This document shows, in pieces, positions 601 to 9,865 of a stretch of DNA of 20,960 nucleotides (position 1 is the stretch's first letter; every line of letters begins with the position of its first letter). A program made the translations under genes and the position numbers. This DNA is from a virus. The notes below the pieces were generated by a model. That model saw only the letters and a program-made list of their open reading frames with translations. It ran no database searches and had not been told where the DNA came from. The stretch spans positions 1-20,960 of the IMG/VR virus record IMGVR_UViG_3300042505_000675. The stretch is one strand, 5' to 3'.

Positions 601-1013
601 GCCGCCTTCCCTCCATGACGGAACCCGCGCTCCGCGTTTGCCTTGATCTCCTCCACGATTGCCTCGGCTAGAGGCAGGTCGAACCGCTCGGCAAGGTCCA
701 TGCAGCGGACGACGGTTCCGGCCAATTCGCGGACGAGCGTGTCCTTGGTAGCGGCGTCACCCCAAGCCTCCTGCGGCTGCTTTCGGACGGCCTCAATGGC
801 TTCGGACACCTCGGTTCCGACGAGCCCAAGGCATCCGGTGACGACGATTGGAACAGCGTTCGGCATTCCGCTGGTCATCACCATGTCGCGGTCGCCCCAC
901 CATCCGTTTTCGACGTTGATGCCGTGGGCACCGCGGGAGGCATTGCCGAAGGCTGCAATGAAGTCCTCCTGATGCCACGCAGAGGTTACGATTGCCGGAA
1001 GATCGCTTCTCAC
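597..1013 (-). CDS. MazG-like nucleotide pyrophosphohydrolase
   Basis: 138 residues from a GTG start. I chose this start because GTGA overlaps the recT stop and AAGGAGG sits 6 bases upstream; the longer open frame would run back inside recT. The all-alpha NTP pyrophosphohydrolase (MazG-like) pattern is clear: NGWWG (36-40), GLVGTEVSEAIEAVRK (63-78) giving E68 and E71 of the ExxE metal site, RELAGTVVRCMDLAE (95-109), and the diagnostic ending NAERGFRHGGK (126-136), close to the usual NxxRPYRHGGK. Family role: hydrolysis of (d)NTPs to monophosphates, as house-cleaning or control of pools during phage growth. The second metal motif is normally ExxD; here it is E96-L-A-G99, so one acidic ligand is missing and activity may be altered. 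Confidence 0.8.
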   Translation of the reverse strand: MRSDLPAIVTSAWHQEDFIAAFGNASRGAHGINVENGWWGDRDMVMTSGMPNAVPIVVTGCLGLVGTEVSEAIEAVRKQPQEAWGDAATKDTLVRELAGTVVRCMDLAERFDLPLAEAIVEEIKANAERGFRHGGKAA

Positions 1014-1987
1014 GACGCGCCTCCTTCCTTCAGCGCCTTCGCCTGCTTCACGAACGAGTCGAGAGCGCGGATCAGGCGGTTGCACACGGCCTCCGGAAGC
1101 TCCCCGAACGAGGTCTCGGCCACGTCCTGCCCACGGCTTGCGAGGAAAGCGACGAGGTTGTCGAAGTTCAGGCCGGCGGCGATGAATGCCCTCTCGATCT
1201 TCTGGCGCTTTACGTCCAGTTCGGTTGTAAGCGTGGGTTCAGTCGCGGGTTGCGGATCCTGCGCGTTGTCCGCTGCGCCCTGCTGCTCCTCCTGCGGCTC
1301 ATCCTGCGGTGCGTCCTGGACCTGCGGAGCGGGCGCGGCAGGCGCGGCAAACAGCGGCTGCTTTGGGGTCACGTCGCGAACCTTCCGCACGGGCGTCTCT
1401 GCGATGTCGACGGCCTCGTCCTCATCGTGGATGCCGGCGAAACCGAACGCCACCCTGACGGCCTGAATCAGAGCCTTGTGACGCAGCATGCGGCGGGGCA
1501 TCTGACGCCACGGCTCCGTGCCGCGCTGACACTCGGAGTAGTACTCAGTCACCGACACAGGGCGAGACCGCCCCTTGATGTAGATGTGAGCCGTGACGCT
1601 GTGCGGCTTTCCATTCTCGTCGTTCGCCTCAAATTGGATGCCGTCGAACTCCGGCCTGCGGTTCATCAGCTTCGCCCAGCCGTCCACGCCAACCATCGGC
1701 GTGATGCCGCCAGACTTATTCGGGAATGCGTGGATTTCCTTCAGAAACGGGTTCAGCCCGTACTCGTGAGCAACCATGCAGAAGGCCATGAGGTCCTCGT
1801 CTGATACCGGCACCGCCTCGCCACCTTGGCGCTTCGGCATCACGGTCGCCTTCATCGTTTGAAGGAACTTGGTGGGCTCCACTCCATACTGCGCGGCCAT
1901 CTGGCTCGTAAGCGATGGCCGAACCGCGATTGCGGTTGTTGCGGACGCTTCCGCGCCCTGGGTTTTTCTCGTTGTCTCTGGTGTCAT
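1010..1987 (-). CDS. recT: RecT/Bet-family single-strand annealing protein
   Basis: 325 residues with an ATG start, preceded by a modest AGGA-type ribosome site. Residues about 24-190 match the RecT/Bet recombinase core: MAFCMVAHEYGLNPFLKEIHA-type motif (67-87), ITPMVGVDGWAKLMNR (95-110), FDGIQFE (114-120), VTEYYSEC (146-153) and MPRRMLRHKALIQAVRVAFGF (163-183). Family role: coats exonuclease-made single strands and anneals homologous DNA during phage replication and recombination. Residues about 205-255 form a Pro/Gln/Ala/Asp-rich linker. A further helical segment follows (about 258-320, VKRQKIERAFIAAGLNF...), which is not part of the minimal annealase and might be a partner-binding tail. 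The partner exonuclease gene lies downstream at the window edge. Confidence 0.92.
   Translation of the reverse strand: MTPETTRKTQGAEASATTAIAVRPSLTSQMAAQYGVEPTKFLQTMKATVMPKRQGGEAVPVSDEDLMAFCMVAHEYGLNPFLKEIHAFPNKSGGITPMVGVDGWAKLMNRRPEFDGIQFEANDENGKPHSVTAHIYIKGRSRPVSVTEYYSECQRGTEPWRQMPRRMLRHKALIQAVRVAFGFAGIHDEDEAVDIAETPVRKVRDVTPKQPLFAAPAAPAPQVQDAPQDEPQEEQQGAADNAQDPQPATEPTLTTELDVKRQKIERAFIAAGLNFDNLVAFLASRGQDVAETSFGELPEAVCNRLIRALDSFVKQAKALKEGGAS
1020..1026 (-). promoter_or_regulatory. strong ribosome binding site for the MazG-like gene
   Basis: The minus strand reads AAGGAGG, 6 bases before the GTG at 1013. It lies inside the 3' end of recT. Together with the GTGA overlap it fixes the start of the MazG-like gene and argues against the upstream starts in the longer open frame. 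Confidence 0.75.
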
Positions 1988-3094: not shown

Positions 3095-3120
3095 TTGACG
3101 ATTGGCAACAGGGAAATCAG
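3095..3120. repeat. 26-base direct repeat, copy 1
   Basis: Identical to bases 3926-3951. On the minus strand it begins CTGATTTCCCTGTTGCC and contains the TGA stop of the 265-residue gene. It then leads to the next ATG through a segment ending CCACCCATG. Both copies occupy the same place: across the stop of one gene and just before the start of the next. Confidence 0.9.
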
Positions 3121-3914
3121 GCATTTACGCCAGCTGCGCGCAATACCTCAACTGCGTTTTCGTCTGCCACGTGGTACTCGCCGGTGGGTCTAGCTTCGTC
3201 AGACACGCCCCATGCGGCGTAGTCCTTGCCGTCCACTTGTCCGGATCCTCCGGAGTACGTCACCCCTCTGACCGCAATCAGCACGTTTCCCAGGTAGACA
3301 CCCGTGCCCGTGCTGGACAGCAGCGGATGTCCTGCGCGGGCCACCTCTGCCAGCCGCTGGCCAAGCTCATGCCGCGCTGCCAGAGCTGCGGCGCGGGCGT
3401 CGGACTCAGCGGAGAGCGCAGCCTCTGCGCGCTTGCGCTCCTCGATTGTTGCCGACTGCGCCAAGCTTTCCGCCAAGGCGGCAGCAGCGGACTTGTGCCC
3501 TCCGCCGTGCGCCATCCACTGCGGACCCCACTCATCCGACCATCGGACGCGGCACTCGTCGTGCCCCAGGTTGCTGGTGACTGCCACGTTTCCGCGACGG
3601 CTAACAACCACCGTTGCCACTCCACCCAAGGCCTCGATCTCCGCTGCGGCTGCGGCGACCAGTGCGGCCTTTTCGGGCGGCACGGCTGGACCTGCCAGCT
3701 TAACGACCGGCTTCGGCGTGGGGCGGGAGACCTTCCCGCTCCGCAGATATGCCACCACCACCGAGCGGGCGGCAGCCTCGTTTCCGCGGGACACAGTGCC
3801 GTCCCGCACGGACTGACGCACTACAGCATCAGCCGCGGTCTCCACGGTCGCCTGGCCATCGTCCTTTGCCCACGCCTCGGCGGCGCGGGATTTAAGGGTT
3901 TTCAGTGTGTTCAT
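3117..3914 (-). CDS. hypothetical Ala-rich protein (265 aa)
   Basis: Not recognised. The ATG at 3914 follows the second copy of the 26-base repeat and has no clear ribosome site. Residues about 1-75 are a basic, Ala-rich helix region (LKTLKSRAAEAWAKDDGQ). The middle (about 95-150) has alternating hydrophobic strands, VATVVVSRRGNVAVTSN, then WSDEWGPQWMAHGGGHKSA. A long Ala/Glu/Arg helix follows (about 140-200), and the end GEYHVADENAVEVLRAAGVNA looks like a compact C-terminal element. No membrane segment or catalytic motif is evident. It sits in the early region between the repressor-like gene and the small-gene cluster. Confidence 0.75.
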   Translation of the reverse strand: MNTLKTLKSRAAEAWAKDDGQATVETAADAVVRQSVRDGTVSRGNEAAARSVVVAYLRSGKVSRPTPKPVVKLAGPAVPPEKAALVAAAAAEIEALGGVATVVVSRRGNVAVTSNLGHDECRVRWSDEWGPQWMAHGGGHKSAAAALAESLAQSATIEERKRAEAALSAESDARAAALAARHELGQRLAEVARAGHPLLSSTGTGVYLGNVLIAVRGVTYSGGSGQVDGKDYAAWGVSDEARPTGEYHVADENAVEVLRAAGVNA

Positions 3915-3925
3915 GGGTTGGTGAT

Positions 3926-3951
3926 TTGACGATTGGCAACAGGGAAATCAG
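3926..3951. repeat. 26-base direct repeat, copy 2
   Basis: Exact copy of 3095-3120. Here it covers the TGA stop of the 76-residue gene and precedes the ATG at 3914, after a segment ending CCAACCCATG. The shared GTTGCC element also occurs in the dyads flanking the XRE gene. Confidence 0.9.
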
Positions 3952-4710: not shown

Positions 4711-4938
4711 CTACGACACCGGGCAAGCCATCCCCCACACCCACGGCTCAACCCTCGCTGGATTGCACGGACGCCCATTCTTCGGGTGAACGCATTTAGA
4801 CCGCGCACCGTGGAACCACTCGCACCCCTCGCATTGCGAGCGCGTAGGGGCGTTTCTGCGCGGTGGTGGGGCCACCTTTGCGCCGGTGACCTTGCCTCGG
4901 AAGGTGACAGGGCGTTTCAAGCCGGGATTGGATTCCAT
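4711..4938 (-). CDS. small Cys/His-rich protein, possible zinc binder
   Basis: 75 residues. The N-terminal third is basic and Pro-rich (LKRPVTFRGKVTG, APPPRRNAP). The second half carries C36-x2-C39, H43, C49, H51, C58 and C72 (CEGCEWFHGARSKCVHP). This spacing would allow a small zinc site and suggests nucleic acid binding or a structural knuckle. It is the last gene of the group after the Mom-like enzyme. Phage Mu's Com, the activator of mom, is also a small zinc-binding protein, but I see no real sequence match and Com lies upstream of mom, so I do not call this Com. Confidence 0.65.
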   Translation of the reverse strand: MESNPGLKRPVTFRGKVTGAKVAPPPRRNAPTRSQCEGCEWFHGARSKCVHPKNGRPCNPARVEPWVWGMACPVS

Positions 4939-4971: not shown

Positions 4972-5175
4972 TCAAAGGGCGCGGCCGGCTTTCAACGCGT
5001 CCTCGATCTCCTCGTCCAGCAGTTGGGGGAGGAACTGAGGCTGTCCCTTGTACAGGTGGAGGATTCCCTCAACCGCGTACTGAGCCGCAACTTCCGGGTG
5101 CGGATTACCCATGCGCTCGTAGTTGTCGGTTTTGATCTTCAACAGCGCCTTGATTTTGTTCGTCTCGTTCGTCAT
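4972..5175 (-). CDS. small hypothetical protein (67 aa)
   Basis: Starts MTNETNKIKALLKIKTDNY and looks wholly helical and acidic toward the end (LLDEEIEDALKAGRAL). No family recognised. The upstream region is informative: the near-palindrome at 5200-5218 lies about 25 bases before the ATG, and the first 11 bases, ATGACGAACGA, are identical to those of the gene starting at 6473, which has the same palindrome at the same distance. The two genes therefore appear to share a copied control region, although the proteins diverge after the first three residues. Confidence 0.72.
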   Translation of the reverse strand: MTNETNKIKALLKIKTDNYERMGNPHPEVAAQYAVEGILHLYKGQPQFLPQLLDEEIEDALKAGRAL

Positions 5176-5199: not shown

Positions 5200-5218
5200 T
5201 CATTTGTCTACACAATTC
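5200..5218. promoter_or_regulatory. near-palindromic operator-like site, copy 1
   Basis: Nineteen bases identical to 6497-6515. The minus strand reads GAATTGTGTAGACAAATGA. The core TTGTNTANACAA (5204-5215) is a symmetrical 12-base motif with a single mismatched pair. It sits just after the stop of the ribbon-helix-helix-like gene and upstream of the 67-residue gene. It is probably a repressor-binding site or a promoter element; which protein binds is not known. Confidence 0.6.
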
Positions 5219-5220
5219 CG

Positions 5221-5427
5221 TCACGAGTTGAGCTTATGCACAACCCACGCCGAAAGCGGCATCTTGCGCGCCTTCGCCTTGCGTTTCCACTCCGCAAGAA
5301 ACTCTCCAGGCACGCGCATGTTGAGCGCGGAGTTTGCCTTGCGCCCTTGGTTGTGCGCGGCTTTGCGGCCTCGGGTTTCAGAAGAGCGTTTCTTGGTAGG
5401 CAATGGCAATCCTTTCTCCGTTTTCAT
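5221..5427 (-). CDS. ribbon-helix-helix-like DNA-binding protein
   Basis: A 68-residue protein. The first 30 residues are very basic (TKKRSSETRGRKAAHNQGRK). Residues about 33-66, SALNMRVPGEFLAEWKRKAK then MPLSAWVVHKLNS, fit the ribbon-helix-helix plan: a short strand with alternating side chains, helix, turn, helix ending in 'S-x-W-V-x-x-x-L'. Family role: dimeric repressors such as Arc, CopG and MetJ binding short palindromes. The ATG at 5427 lies 50 bases inside the Mom-like gene without a ribosome site; TTG at 5409 has GGAG upstream and is a reasonable alternative. The operator-like site at 5200-5218 follows directly, making autoregulation of this region plausible. Confidence 0.68.
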   Translation of the reverse strand: MKTEKGLPLPTKKRSSETRGRKAAHNQGRKANSALNMRVPGEFLAEWKRKAKARKMPLSAWVVHKLNS

Positions 5428-6034
5428 ACGTTGACTTCGGTAGCTTTGGGTATGGCTTAACCCCTGCGTAAGCAAGCGCGGAAGCCATGCGCCTGACCTG
5501 TGCGCGGTTTCCACAGAGCTTGAAATATCGGTGCTTCTCTTTTGGCCTGACGGTTTCAATCCCGTTCTCCTTCGCCCACTTCATTGGCGCTGTAATGCCG
5601 TTGTCACGCAACGTCATCGGATGCGTTGGCTTTCCGTTCACAATGTACAGCACGTCATGGGAAACGGTGCTGCCCGTGTAAATCCAGTTGGTTGCCTGAT
5701 ACACGATGCCAGCATGCCCATGCGCTGTGTCGGCGTAGCTCACAACCGCGCAGGGCGTTTCCAGCATGCGAAGACTTCCACCCACAAGGAAGGATGCCGC
5801 GTTCCTTTCGCTGGTCTGAATCACCAAGCGGGAAAGCTCAAAGAACTTCCAATCCCGATCCTTGAATGCGTGCTTCTGGATTGCGGGGCTTGGCTGGCCG
5901 TAGACAACGCAGCCTTCAATCCACCCACCAATCACAAGGCCGAACCCACGCCAGAAAATCGACGGTGTTTTCGAGTAGTGACGGGCTGAAACCAGCCTGT
6001 CGCACTCAGCTTTTCCAAGCTCCACGACTTTCAT
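5378..6034 (-). CDS. Mom-like DNA base-modification protein (GNAT fold)
   Basis: 218 residues, close in size to phage Mu Mom. Features shared with Mom-like proteins: ARHYSKTPS near the N-terminus (17-25), FGLVIGGWIEGCVVYGQP (31-48), FFELSRLVI (64-72), VVSYADTAHGHAGIVYQAT (97-115) followed by NWIYTG, and PKEKHRYFKLCG (164-175). Mu Mom converts adenine in phage DNA to N6-(methylcarbamoyl)adenine and thereby blocks many restriction enzymes. A similar protective role is inferred here, but the exact base product is not predictable. The ATG overlaps the stop of the 58-residue gene (ATGA). No Com-like translational activator is visible upstream. Confidence 0.8.
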   Translation of the reverse strand: MKVVELGKAECDRLVSARHYSKTPSIFWRGFGLVIGGWIEGCVVYGQPSPAIQKHAFKDRDWKFFELSRLVIQTSERNAASFLVGGSLRMLETPCAVVSYADTAHGHAGIVYQATNWIYTGSTVSHDVLYIVNGKPTHPMTLRDNGITAPMKWAKENGIETVRPKEKHRYFKLCGNRAQVRRMASALAYAGVKPYPKLPKSTYENGERIAIAYQETLF

Positions 6035-6207
6035 GACTGCAAGTATGCGGTGACCTTGTGGCCTTTGCTGGTGACGGATTCAGCCCAGATTCTGGCGTCA
6101 AAATCACTGTCACCAAACATCTTGATGCGACGCCTGCCGAAGTACGCGTACAGGTTTCCCCAGATGTTGCGCTTGATGGTGACCTTGATCTGCTTGCGCT
6201 TGCTCAT
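6031..6207 (-). CDS. small basic protein upstream of the Mom-like gene (58 aa)
   Basis: Starts MSKRKQIKVTIKRNIWGNLY at the ATG at 6207 and ends VTAYLQS, with its stop overlapping the Mom-like ATG (ATGA). The pattern of strands (IKVTIKRNIWGNLYAYFG), a central RRRIKMFG and a helix with DARIWAESV suggests a small alpha/beta DNA- or RNA-binding protein. It has no cysteines, so it is not a zinc-finger Com. It is tightly coupled to the Mom-like enzyme and could act as its partner or translational coupler; this is inference from position only. Confidence 0.7.
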   Translation of the reverse strand: MSKRKQIKVTIKRNIWGNLYAYFGRRRIKMFGDSDFDARIWAESVTSKGHKVTAYLQS

Positions 6208-6218
6208 GTGCAGCCCTG

Positions 6219-6473
6219 TTATTTCCCGGTGACAGCGTAGCGGTTTACACGCATATCACGCGCTGTTGCGCGGGCGATTCCGCGCTTGGCAATTACAGCA
6301 TTGAACCTCTCGCTGGCTCGCTTGCGCGCTTTGTTGCCGCAGCCTCGCGGGATCCAGCTTCCAGACAGCCGAGCGCTGATAACTTCGTAGGCCTCGTGGT
6401 TTGGATTGCAGAGAAGATCCAACTTCAGGCTAGCTTGAGAAGAAACATTCGGAGCGCGATCGTCGTTCGTCAT
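6219..6473 (-). CDS. hypothetical basic protein (84 aa)
   Basis: First gene after the structural block. It starts MTNDDRAPNVSSQASLKLDL at an ATG whose upstream 19-base palindrome and first 11 coding bases match those of the gene at 5175. The C-terminal half is rich in Arg and Lys (GNKARKRASERFNAVIAKRG) and ends with ARATARDMRVNRYAVTGK, which could form a helix-turn-helix-like end, though I cannot confirm this. It is likely a nucleic-acid-binding accessory protein. It lies 11 bases upstream of the next gene. Confidence 0.68.
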   Translation of the reverse strand: MTNDDRAPNVSSQASLKLDLLCNPNHEAYEVISARLSGSWIPRGCGNKARKRASERFNAVIAKRGIARATARDMRVNRYAVTGK

Positions 6474-6496
6474 GCCGACAACCTACCGCATGCCGC

Positions 6497-6515
6497 TCAT
6501 TTGTCTACACAATTC
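6497..6515. promoter_or_regulatory. near-palindromic operator-like site, copy 2
   Basis: Identical over 19 bases to 5200-5218, core at 6501-6512. It touches the stop codon of the 1116-residue gene and lies 27 bases before the ATG at 6473; in copy 1 the equivalent distance is 28. It is well placed to start or control transcription of the Mom-like group separately from the late genes. Confidence 0.6.
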
Positions 6516-9500
6516 TACTCCACCTCATCCTCAAACGGAACGCGCAGGATAATCGCGTCAGACACGACGGGTTCGTACGTGTCCGTGATGATGATCGGGG
6601 TGGAGCAATTCGACGCTCCATTTCGAGAGCCGTACAAGACCGCGGTCCCAATCTCCGGGATCTTTGTGCGCCCCGTGTTCGGCAGGAGTTCGCACGTAAC
6701 GTTGTTCGGCCCGTACGCGTCCAGCCTCCAAGCTGACCCGCCAGAGACCTCCCAACCTTGCAACCCTGCGCAGAGTGTACCGTCCGCATACGGAACCACA
6801 GTGTGCTCCTCGCGCTGCTCCTGATACTGCCGACGCCAGACCATTTCCCCGTTGGTGTTGAGCATGTCGCGCCACGTCTCGGGGATCGCCTCGATGGCGT
6901 CGGGGTCCACCAGCTCGAAACGGTACTCGTCTTCGTGGACGGTGTTCTCGACTAGATAGAGCGGGCCAGCGCCGGACGCAGAGCACGCGAATCCGGACGC
7001 GAAATTGACCTGGTTGCTCCCCTGCATCGTGCTCGCAGCCCCCCAAGTGCTTGTCATCGTCGTAGGTGAAACGCCACCGCCCGCGAACTGTGCGCGCCAC
7101 CCGCCGAGTCCCGACGTGGAACAATCGGACGCGCTCCCATCGAATGCCGCAACGGCTCCAACATATTTCGGGTCGTTGGTTTCGTCGTATGGCTGCGTCT
7201 CAAACTGGAACGGCAGCGACACGCGCACGCGGGTCAGTTTGTTGACGGCCTTTGCGAATTGGTTCCACGTCTCCGCGGCGAGGCGCACCGTCGGCAATGG
7301 CCCATAACCTATAGGCGAGTCCTCGCGCACGTCGTCAGGTCCAAGCGCGTCGGTTTCCGCGGTCGGCATCGTGGTGATGCTGGTGCCTTGGAACGCGTCG
7401 AAGCAGAGGTTTGCGAAGGTGTAATCAAAGACCGCCGTGACGCCCACGGTGCATCCGTAATCAATGCTCGTTTGGCCGTCCACGTAGCCCTCGCAGATGG
7501 CGCGAATGTACGTCTCCGCTTGAAGCATCACGTCGTGACGGATCGGCGTGTCAGACTTATTGGCCGTGTCGTTGCCGTCGTCGTATGGCTTCGGCAGCAA
7601 CTGGACGAACCAGATGTGAGGGAAGCAAGTGCCGTAGGGGTTATCCGGCAGGCCTTGAACAACGGAACCGCTAGCCGCATTCCCAGGCCCTGTGCGCTCG
7701 CAGTTCAGCGACGTGTCATCCTTCCAAGCGAGGTATTCGCGAATGGCGTTCTCGTCGGTTCGGTAGCTCTGCGCCTCCGCCAGCAACGCGGCAAGGTCCC
7801 ATGTGGAAATGTCGCGGTCTATGCTCGCGGGCGCGGTCTCGTGATGGTGGAAGCGCGTCTTGAACGTGATCTTGACCTGAGTTTCGCCGTCCACGGTGAC
7901 GGTCTCCGCGGAGTCGATTTCAAGGGGCGGCTCGTATAGGCGGCACGATTTGTAGAACTCATCTACGGGCGCGGCGGTGTTCAGGTTTTTGGAGTAGCGG
8001 TAGCCGGTCGCTCCCTCGGGCGCTAGGAAGTCGTCTACAGCGCTTGGGAAGTTGGCGTTGAAATGCCGCTTGAGTTCGCCGCTGGTGAACGAAGAGGCAT
8101 AGAACGCGCAGCGGTCCGAGGTTGACCAATACTCGGCATAACCCTCCTGTGACCAGTCGGAGGTCGGTGAAGGGTGGTAGGCCGCAAAGCGAGCGAAGGC
8201 GCACCATTCGTTCGTATAGCCTTGCCGCGGGGCTTCGTGCTCGATCTCGTCGCGGATGCCTTTCAGCACGTCGCACTCAGGCAAGCCGACGATGGATTGA
8301 TAGAACGGGTCAACCCACAGGACGGACTTGCCGCCCACGACGGCGTAGCCTTTGACCTGTGACGGGTGAAGGCAGCGGACAACGCGGGAGAGCCTGCGAA
8401 ACTTGTCGAAGACCGCGTTCGTGTCGATTTGCCGATCCTCCATCGGCGGCAGTTCATTGTCTCCTCCGAGTTTCGGAATCACCCCCAACGTGCTGTACGC
8501 CTCCCAGATTTCGTTCGCGTTGGCGACGCTTCGGCCGGACCCGTCGATGTCGGAAACACTGTTGGCGCCGGCGAGGCGTAGCAGCGTCCAGAGGTCGTGA
8601 ACGCCTGGGCGATAGGCGAACGTCTCCGCAAGCTCATAGGACACCGTGACGCTCGCGCCTGACACGGACGAAACGGACACCTCGATGTCCTCGGCGCCCT
8701 GCGTGAACAACGCCAGCGCGCTGCCCTCTTGGCTTCCTACGACAGCCTTGCCGACGACGACGTCGCCAGAAGTGAACGTGACGGTTGCGGGAACGATGGT
8801 TCCGGTGACGCGGACGATGGCGCACGAGAACCAGCATCCGCTCTGCGCGAAATGGGAGCCGATGACGCCGGACACCGTCGCGCCAGAGCGTGAGCCCTGC
8901 GTGTACTGCGGGACGACTTCATCGTTGATGGTGTACCCGCGGGCGGGAGCGAGGTAGTACGGTCGCGTGAGGAAGCTGGCGATGTCGAACGCCTTTCCAA
9001 GCCATCGCGGCCCGCCCTTGTTCTCACCCTCAACCCGTGCCGTATCGCCACGGAACTCGCCGGCAAATGCGTTCAAGACTCGCGGCAGGTGTTCGCTGTA
9101 AGTCTTCCGCAACGCCGCGCCTGATTCATATGGACCTTCGACCCACTTGGCGCGGTCGAAGTAATACATGGTGCCGTCGTTCAACGTCACCCAGAACGCC
9201 AGCGGCGTTTGCCATATGCCGGCGATGTGGGTTGGTTCGTCTGGGCAGGTTCCATCAAAGACCTGCGTTGCCTCCGTCTCGACGTTGGTGAAATAGATCT
9301 CGAAGTTCGGCGAAGCGTCCGGGTCCAGACAGTCGCCCAAAAACTCAGGCGTCGGCTGGAATCCACCGTACGCGTTGCCGTAGATCGACGTGCCGGCGTA
9401 GACGATCCGGAACGCGTGGCGGGCAGCGTCGAATGTTGGCGAACTCCACTCCTCCGTGGACGGGTTGAACGCGCCACGCTGTTGCTTCGCCAACTCCCAC

Positions 9501-9865
9501 GCCTGCTCCGCGTCTGTCACCGTCGCCATTGGGACGTCGTATGCGTCCACCTCGGCAGGGAATGAGCCTTGCCCGTAGACGTATAGCCCGAGCGGATTGG
9601 ACGTGGAAACGCCGCTGATGCTGCCGGCGAACGGCAGGTTGAGCGGCTCGTCCAGCATCTGGATTGAGTGGAAGAACTCGGCGTCAGTTTGACCTAGGAC
9701 GCGGAATTGGCGCGCCAATGCCAGGTAGTAGTACGCAACGCGCCAAGCCCCGTCCCCAAGACCGGAGACGAGGCGTGCATTGATGCCGTCAGCGAGTCCG
9801 GCGAGTTGGGTGGACGTTACCGGGTCGCCGGGCTCTACCTCCGGAACTCGCGGGAACGAGATCAC
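6515..9865 (-). CDS. large putative tail-tip or host-contact protein (1116 aa)
   Basis: The longest gene in the window, starting at a GTG that overlaps the preceding stop (GTGA). I recognise no domain. The N-terminus MISFPRVPEVEPGDPVTSTQLAGLADGIN suggests a particle-attached anchor, followed by DGAWRVAYYYLALARQF. Much of the rest is rich in aromatic residues, Gly and Asp, with scattered cysteines, as in beta-rich virion proteins; the region about 360-450 (VTGTIVPATVTFTSGDVVVG..., VSVSSVSGASVTVSYEL) resembles beta-sandwich repeats. No membrane segment or enzyme motif was found. As the last and largest gene after the tape measure, it holds the usual place of the tail-tip or central fibre protein, but it lacks recognisable gpJ-type motifs. 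Confidence 0.85.
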   Translation of the reverse strand: MISFPRVPEVEPGDPVTSTQLAGLADGINARLVSGLGDGAWRVAYYYLALARQFRVLGQTDAEFFHSIQMLDEPLNLPFAGSISGVSTSNPLGLYVYGQGSFPAEVDAYDVPMATVTDAEQAWELAKQQRGAFNPSTEEWSSPTFDAARHAFRIVYAGTSIYGNAYGGFQPTPEFLGDCLDPDASPNFEIYFTNVETEATQVFDGTCPDEPTHIAGIWQTPLAFWVTLNDGTMYYFDRAKWVEGPYESGAALRKTYSEHLPRVLNAFAGEFRGDTARVEGENKGGPRWLGKAFDIASFLTRPYYLAPARGYTINDEVVPQYTQGSRSGATVSGVIGSHFAQSGCWFSCAIVRVTGTIVPATVTFTSGDVVVGKAVVGSQEGSALALFTQGAEDIEVSVSSVSGASVTVSYELAETFAYRPGVHDLWTLLRLAGANSVSDIDGSGRSVANANEIWEAYSTLGVIPKLGGDNELPPMEDRQIDTNAVFDKFRRLSRVVRCLHPSQVKGYAVVGGKSVLWVDPFYQSIVGLPECDVLKGIRDEIEHEAPRQGYTNEWCAFARFAAYHPSPTSDWSQEGYAEYWSTSDRCAFYASSFTSGELKRHFNANFPSAVDDFLAPEGATGYRYSKNLNTAAPVDEFYKSCRLYEPPLEIDSAETVTVDGETQVKITFKTRFHHHETAPASIDRDISTWDLAALLAEAQSYRTDENAIREYLAWKDDTSLNCERTGPGNAASGSVVQGLPDNPYGTCFPHIWFVQLLPKPYDDGNDTANKSDTPIRHDVMLQAETYIRAICEGYVDGQTSIDYGCTVGVTAVFDYTFANLCFDAFQGTSITTMPTAETDALGPDDVREDSPIGYGPLPTVRLAAETWNQFAKAVNKLTRVRVSLPFQFETQPYDETNDPKYVGAVAAFDGSASDCSTSGLGGWRAQFAGGGVSPTTMTSTWGAASTMQGSNQVNFASGFACSASGAGPLYLVENTVHEDEYRFELVDPDAIEAIPETWRDMLNTNGEMVWRRQYQEQREEHTVVPYADGTLCAGLQGWEVSGGSAWRLDAYGPNNVTCELLPNTGRTKIPEIGTAVLYGSRNGASNCSTPIIITDTYEPVVSDAIILRVPFEDEVE

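Follow-up and report, generated by a model that had tools for sequence, protein, structure and literature searches.

A Mom-family gene in an apparent cargo slot framed by an operator-like repeat and a ribbon-helix-helix-like gene

In the Mom family of DNA modification enzymes, the product is N6-methylcarbamoyl adenine (PMC8281217). Expression of Mom is toxic and hence held down in phage Mu (PMC4461284); several layers of control restrain the enzyme there, as it is toxic in excess. Mom homologues, which serve as a means of countering restriction, are common in phages, and Com, the small zinc protein of the Mu com-mom pair, is absent from those examined. From cluster K mycobacteriophages, the short repeated SAS/ESAS elements are known, which stand just before the starts of varied small genes (PMC3203893). 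Here we describe a locus in which a known enzyme probably has a control layout different from that of Mu. The locus offers a concrete and testable alternative for such control, in which a putative ribbon-helix-helix (RHH) autorepressor would act on a defined site of 42 bp.

The window analyzed comprises 20,960 bases of an IMG/VR virus record, which is probably a fragment, and carries all predicted genes on the minus strand. In order, these encode a gpA-type terminase, a lambda-type portal, an S49 protease, a tape measure protein, and a 1116-aa protein; an XRE-type protein and a RecT/Bet annealase lie beyond the region of interest. All genes named in an earlier note on this DNA are intact minus-strand ORFs, and their order is as described there. 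Terminases in phage records are remote from that of the window, the nearest ones reaching 22% (Verrucomicrobia phage P8625), and a terminase search for the host among genome contigs returned no match. No integrase was found in the window or in four sister contigs (see below). Four further contigs (L084–L087) show 99–100% protein identity to this phage group in the terminase/portal region; since these matches come from other metagenomes, the group is widespread. The features of the locus are listed in Table 1.

Table 1. Features of the mom locus and its surroundings (window coordinates)
Feature	Position	Strand	Basis
Beta/RecT-type annealase	1010-1987		Pfam and PHROG profile matches
75-aa Cys-rich constant gene, other slot border, outside the cassette	4711-4938	-	80-89% in four sisters
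67-aa protein (p67), second cargo gene, preceded by an operator copy of its own	4972-5175	-	absent from four sister loci
19-bp operator repeat, copy 2, preceding the 67-aa gene	5200-5218	-	exact repeat
RHH-like small putative DNA-binding protein, last cassette gene	5221-5427	-	sister identity, weak profiles
Mom-family DNA modification enzyme, GNAT fold, 218 aa	5378-6034	-	profiles, structure, catalytic residues
58-aa basic protein (p58), cargo	6031-6207	-	ORF; relatives only in Burkholderia phages
84-aa protein (p84), cargo, first gene behind the operator	6219-6473	-	ORF; no relatives found
Putative promoter/operator block GAATTGTGTAGACAAATGAGCGGCATGCGGTAGGTTGTCGGC before the 84-aa gene	6474-6515	-	41/42 shared with L089 and L092
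1116-aa gene, upstream slot border, taken as tail protein by position	6515-9865	-	85-93% in four sisters

The enzyme itself is an ordinary Mom of the known family. The 218-aa protein matches PF25680 (E=2.1e-27; 96.6 bits, cut-off 27.1; profile positions 4–202 of 202) as well as PHROG 1384, “Mom-like DNA modification protein” (E=4.6e-38), and a single-sequence phmmer search of the PDB retrieves 8bv8, “Methylcarbamoylase mom” (E=1.2e-6). This entry is the crystal structure of Mu Mom, described as “inactive mutant S124A.” An AlphaFold2 model built from 39 window and locus sequences (pLDDT 91) aligned best in Foldseek with chains B and A of 8bv8 (E=2.7e-10 and 5.8e-10), followed by other GNATs at 1e-4. 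Structural comparison with Mu Mom had been named beforehand as a test, and because Mu Mom tops the matches, its outcome favors membership in the family. In an alignment of 79 relatives and Mu Mom, S81 of the window protein corresponds to the catalytic S124 of Mu Mom, and H19, Y20, R69, D102, Y112, Q113, and N116 are common to both proteins; the S81 position is invariant among 39 aligned Moms. Sequence, structure, and catalytic residues firmly identify the protein as a true Mom, in agreement with the Mom-like GNAT enzyme proposed in the earlier note, and the conserved fold and residues suggest Mom activity. This enzyme has many relatives, with at least 599 stretches in IMG/VR and 266 phage records.

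Searching with the 1116-aa gene, which has no Pfam or PHROG match, revealed four contigs of the same genus (L089–L092). In two of them (L090 and L091) the slot between the 1116-aa and the 75-aa gene is empty, and the stop codon of the 1116-aa gene overlaps the next start (GAGGAGTGAAACGCC). In the other two (L089 and L092) the slot holds GAATTGTGTAGACAAATGCGCGGCATGCGGTAGGTTGTCGGC, followed by one small gene and an RHH-like gene; the stop codon of the latter and the start of the 75-aa gene overlap. The small cargo proteins of 71 or 81 aa are unrelated to each other and have no family matches. In the window, the slot is filled by the 42-bp block, p84-p58-mom, the RHH-like gene, the second 19-bp copy, and p67, followed by the 75-aa gene; no Mom was found in the four sister contigs. 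Judging from the aligned loci, the slot has a constant frame, with a block bearing TTGTGTAGACAA at its 5′ end and the RHH-like gene at its 3′ end; three phages of the genus have both of these, and two have neither. These three slot states, together with the co-occurrence of operator and RHH-like gene, indicate that mom is most likely interchangeable cargo in an autoregulated cassette. The lower G+C content of mom, p58, and p84 (52–56%, compared with 61% for the window) is in line with a possible acquisition but no proof of it.

Elsewhere in the window, a second exact direct repeat of 26 nt (3095–3120 and 3926–3951) flanks a 265-aa gene (3117–3914). L089, L090, and L091 each contain a single copy of this repeat at the matching place and no 265-aa gene, so that the region looks like a second cargo slot of the same build.

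The earlier note had also described two operator-like sites. Indeed, the minus strand carries two exact copies of a 19-bp direct repeat, GAATTGTGTAGACAAATGA, at 6497–6515 and 5200–5218, each 23–24 nt ahead of a start codon, that of the 84-aa and that of the 67-aa gene, respectively; allowing up to three mismatches, these are the only sites in the window, whereas none is expected from 100 shuffles. The 42-bp block that contains the first copy is identical between L089 and L092 (42/42) and differs from both at one position in the window (41/42), whereas the adjacent 1116-aa gene is only 81–86% identical between the three phages; recent transfer of the cassette could also account for this high conservation. 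With up to two mismatches, the window has two occurrences of TTGTGTAGACAAATG, L089 and L092 have one apiece, and the L090 and L091 contigs have none. The exact 19-mer has no match in other viral contigs, because the sisters differ at the last base. The corresponding 18-mer matches both L089 and L092, as well as a fifth contig (L093), where it lies inside coding sequence with no other homology and was judged a chance match. The repeat was dismissed as a target for insertion, since the empty sites of L090 and L091 lack it.

Ten of the 12 positions of the TTGTGTAGACAA core are self-complementary. The core includes TAGACA, one position off TTGACA, and is followed after 16–17 nt by weak −10-like hexamers (TAGGTT and CATTGT) that end 6 nt upstream of the ATG. 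These elements could form a leaderless promoter covered by the operator, which is speculative because a scan for consensus sigma-70 promoters found none at the block.

The repeat might instead be a mere promoter- or start-associated element of the phage, with the RHH-like protein as a piece of cargo acting elsewhere and mom under no specific control. The element runs into the start codons (ATGACGAACG), resembling in this the start-associated sequences (SAS) known from cluster K mycobacteriophages (PMC3203893), and it also precedes p67, which has no RHH gene of its own; moreover, Mom is encoded in many phages in unrelated settings, with neither RHH nor Com nearby. We regard this explanation as rather unlikely, given that element and RHH-like gene are jointly present in three of three phages and jointly absent in two of two, that the RHH-like gene stays constant while the cargo varies, and that the self-complementarity of TTGTGTAGACAA is as expected of a dimer site.

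The RHH-like protein of the window shares 82–87% identity with its 55-aa counterparts at the corresponding site of L089 and L092; when IMG/VR was queried with an alignment of the RHH-like proteins, only these two sisters were retrieved. The window gene, which ends at 5221, starts either with ATG at 5427 or with TTG at 5406. Homology between window and sisters resumes on the right-hand side at GAAACCCGAGG, immediately past the mom stop codon, indicating that mom replaced the sister cargo together with the RHH start codon. As the start codon used in the sisters is lost, the window gene must start inside mom. The protein is termed RHH-like on account of a typical sequence pattern (LNMRVPGEF...LSAWVVHKL) and of profile matches below the curated cut-offs, namely CopG_antitoxin (E=0.0097) and Arc-like (0.05) for the window and CopG_antitoxin (0.0044) and Arc-like (0.0034) for the sisters. 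Other weak matches include Arc-like (up to 0.063), a PDB antitoxin (0.13), and HicB families. The AF2 model is weak (pLDDT 66) and does not recover the strand.

The CopG antitoxin and HicB matches, and the small gene immediately preceding the RHH-like gene in L089 and L092, would also fit an antitoxin paired with a cargo protein as its toxin. Antitoxins match their toxin, however, whereas here a single RHH-like protein accompanies three unrelated cargos; the sister proteins, at 55 aa, have no evident toxin-binding tail, and no toxin match was found with PADLOC or NCBIfam. An antitoxin role is thus highly improbable.

Considering the locus as a whole, we think it probable that Mom shields the phage DNA, that mom is swappable cargo, and that the RHH-like protein binds TTGTGTAGACAA and represses the cassette. 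Mom would be produced from a single p84-p58-mom-RHH transcript and would transfer a methylcarbamoyl-type group to adenine N6 in phage DNA, a modification that might protect the DNA from host restriction. The mom gene would occupy an exchangeable slot between the 1116-aa and 75-aa genes, and cargo exchange could proceed by recombination at short repeated blocks, perhaps aided by the phage RecT. By binding to the operator, where TAGACA overlaps a possible −35 element, the RHH-like protein would repress its own transcript as well as the downstream p67 transcript and may thereby limit the level of Mom with no need for Com, Mu C, or Dam/OxyR. Such control is suggested by synteny, and autorepression would be the simplest mechanism. 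The RHH-like protein could also act as an activator instead. Alternatively, operator and RHH-like gene could travel together merely as one block that is inherited or exchanged, which would yield the same pattern of co-occurrence, and three versus two genomes, on possibly incomplete contigs, is a small sample.

The 58-residue basic protein that the earlier note considered coupled to mom is a genuine ORF, with its TGA and the mom ATG overlapping by 4 nt. It contains 13 K/R and 4 D/E residues and no cysteines. By position, size, and charge p58 resembles Mu Com (62 aa, just before mom and overlapping it), and the overlap suggests translational coupling, so that p58 might replace Com functionally by activating mom translation or by partnering the enzyme. 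However, 4-nt overlaps with unrelated upstream ORFs occur at 13 of 76 mom loci, which makes the arrangement ordinary packing, and p58 lacks the cysteines of a Com-like protein. None of 80 Mom relatives has a p58 homologue beside it; relatives were detected only in the Burkholderia jumbo phages BcepSauron and BcepSaruman (∼44% over 45 aa), and BcepSaruman, the one searched, contains no Mom. On these grounds of conservation, p58 was rejected as a Com substitute, and we consider such a function very unlikely. No relatives of p84 were found in phage records or near mom in 80 loci, and none of the other mom genes examined has a convincing homologue of p58, p84, or the RHH-like protein in its vicinity. 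The homology search proposed for the small neighbors therefore did not bear out conservation of p58 and p84 beside mom. Of the two routes of control suggested earlier, the one through the RHH-like protein gains from its joint presence with the operator (three phages with both, two with neither), whereas the one through p58 is not supported in view of this lack of conservation.

The profile of Com (PF10122) has no match in the window record or in 47 other Mom-bearing viral contigs, with Mu as positive control, which upholds the earlier statement that no Com-like gene lies upstream. The gene preceding mom varies between the contigs examined, and an ORF with a Cys-x2-Cys...Cys-x2-Cys pattern near the mom start was seen only in L029, L032, and L034. 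Lack of Com is the norm among the Mom relatives examined, and its absence here is therefore unsurprising. A late activator of the C/Mor family (PF08765), which matches twice in Mu, was not found in the window fragment or the sister contigs, and no GATC cluster lies upstream of the operator (6516–6560), the single GATC being located inside p84. The score for a hairpin at the mom start is uninformative, as it does not separate the window (z=−0.03) from Mu itself (z=0.00).

The 75-aa protein at the slot border (CEGCEWFH...CVHP...C, five cysteines) probably starts from TTG at 4920 (GTG in the sisters). It was rejected as a displaced Com, because it is constant in the genus, occurring in each of the four sisters whether their slot holds cargo or not, and matches neither Com nor any other Pfam family.

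In L032 (mom at 1257–1886) and L034 (mom at 1580–2209), a 55-aa ORF with CSQC...CLEC extends 77 nt into mom, an arrangement like that of Mu com, yet without a PF10122 match. Both contigs carry a second, partial mom-like stretch upstream, and L037, L042, and L044 each contain two closely spaced mom-like genes, or mom with a partial copy nearby.

Beyond the earlier note, the analysis contributes comparative evidence that the operator/RHH frame carries mom as putatively swapped cargo; the hypothesis of RHH control thereby becomes specific and testable. The empty, single-cargo, and mom-bearing phages illustrate the gain of a DNA modification gene as exchangeable cargo. More tentatively, operator and RHH-like gene might form a portable, self-repressed “docking frame” for swapped small anti-host genes, in which repeats and annealase would drive exchange and the repressor would buffer cargo toxicity.

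In comparison with known systems, the locus shares with Mu com-mom the Mom family, the fold, the catalytic serine, and a small gene overlapping the mom start. In contrast to Mu, the sequence covered shows no Com zinc protein, no Mu C activator, and no GATC cluster before the promoter, and the locus possesses a repeated operator and an RHH gene belonging to the cargo frame. Mom-like proteins (PF25680/phrog_1384) of Listeria, Staphylococcus, Vibrio, Bacillus, and other phages belong to the same family in varied gene settings. The IMG/VR relatives examined are without Com, as is the window, whereas the RHH/operator frame was not found beside the Mom relatives examined. PeSL regulatory cassettes of T4-type phages likewise place portable promoter elements around exchangeable small genes, but unlike the window, they are not known to include a linked repressor gene. 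Similar to SAS/ESAS, the window repeat is short and lies just upstream of small-gene start codons; unlike these elements, it is self-complementary, is tied to an RHH gene, and marks the ends of a slot that is empty in two of the sisters.
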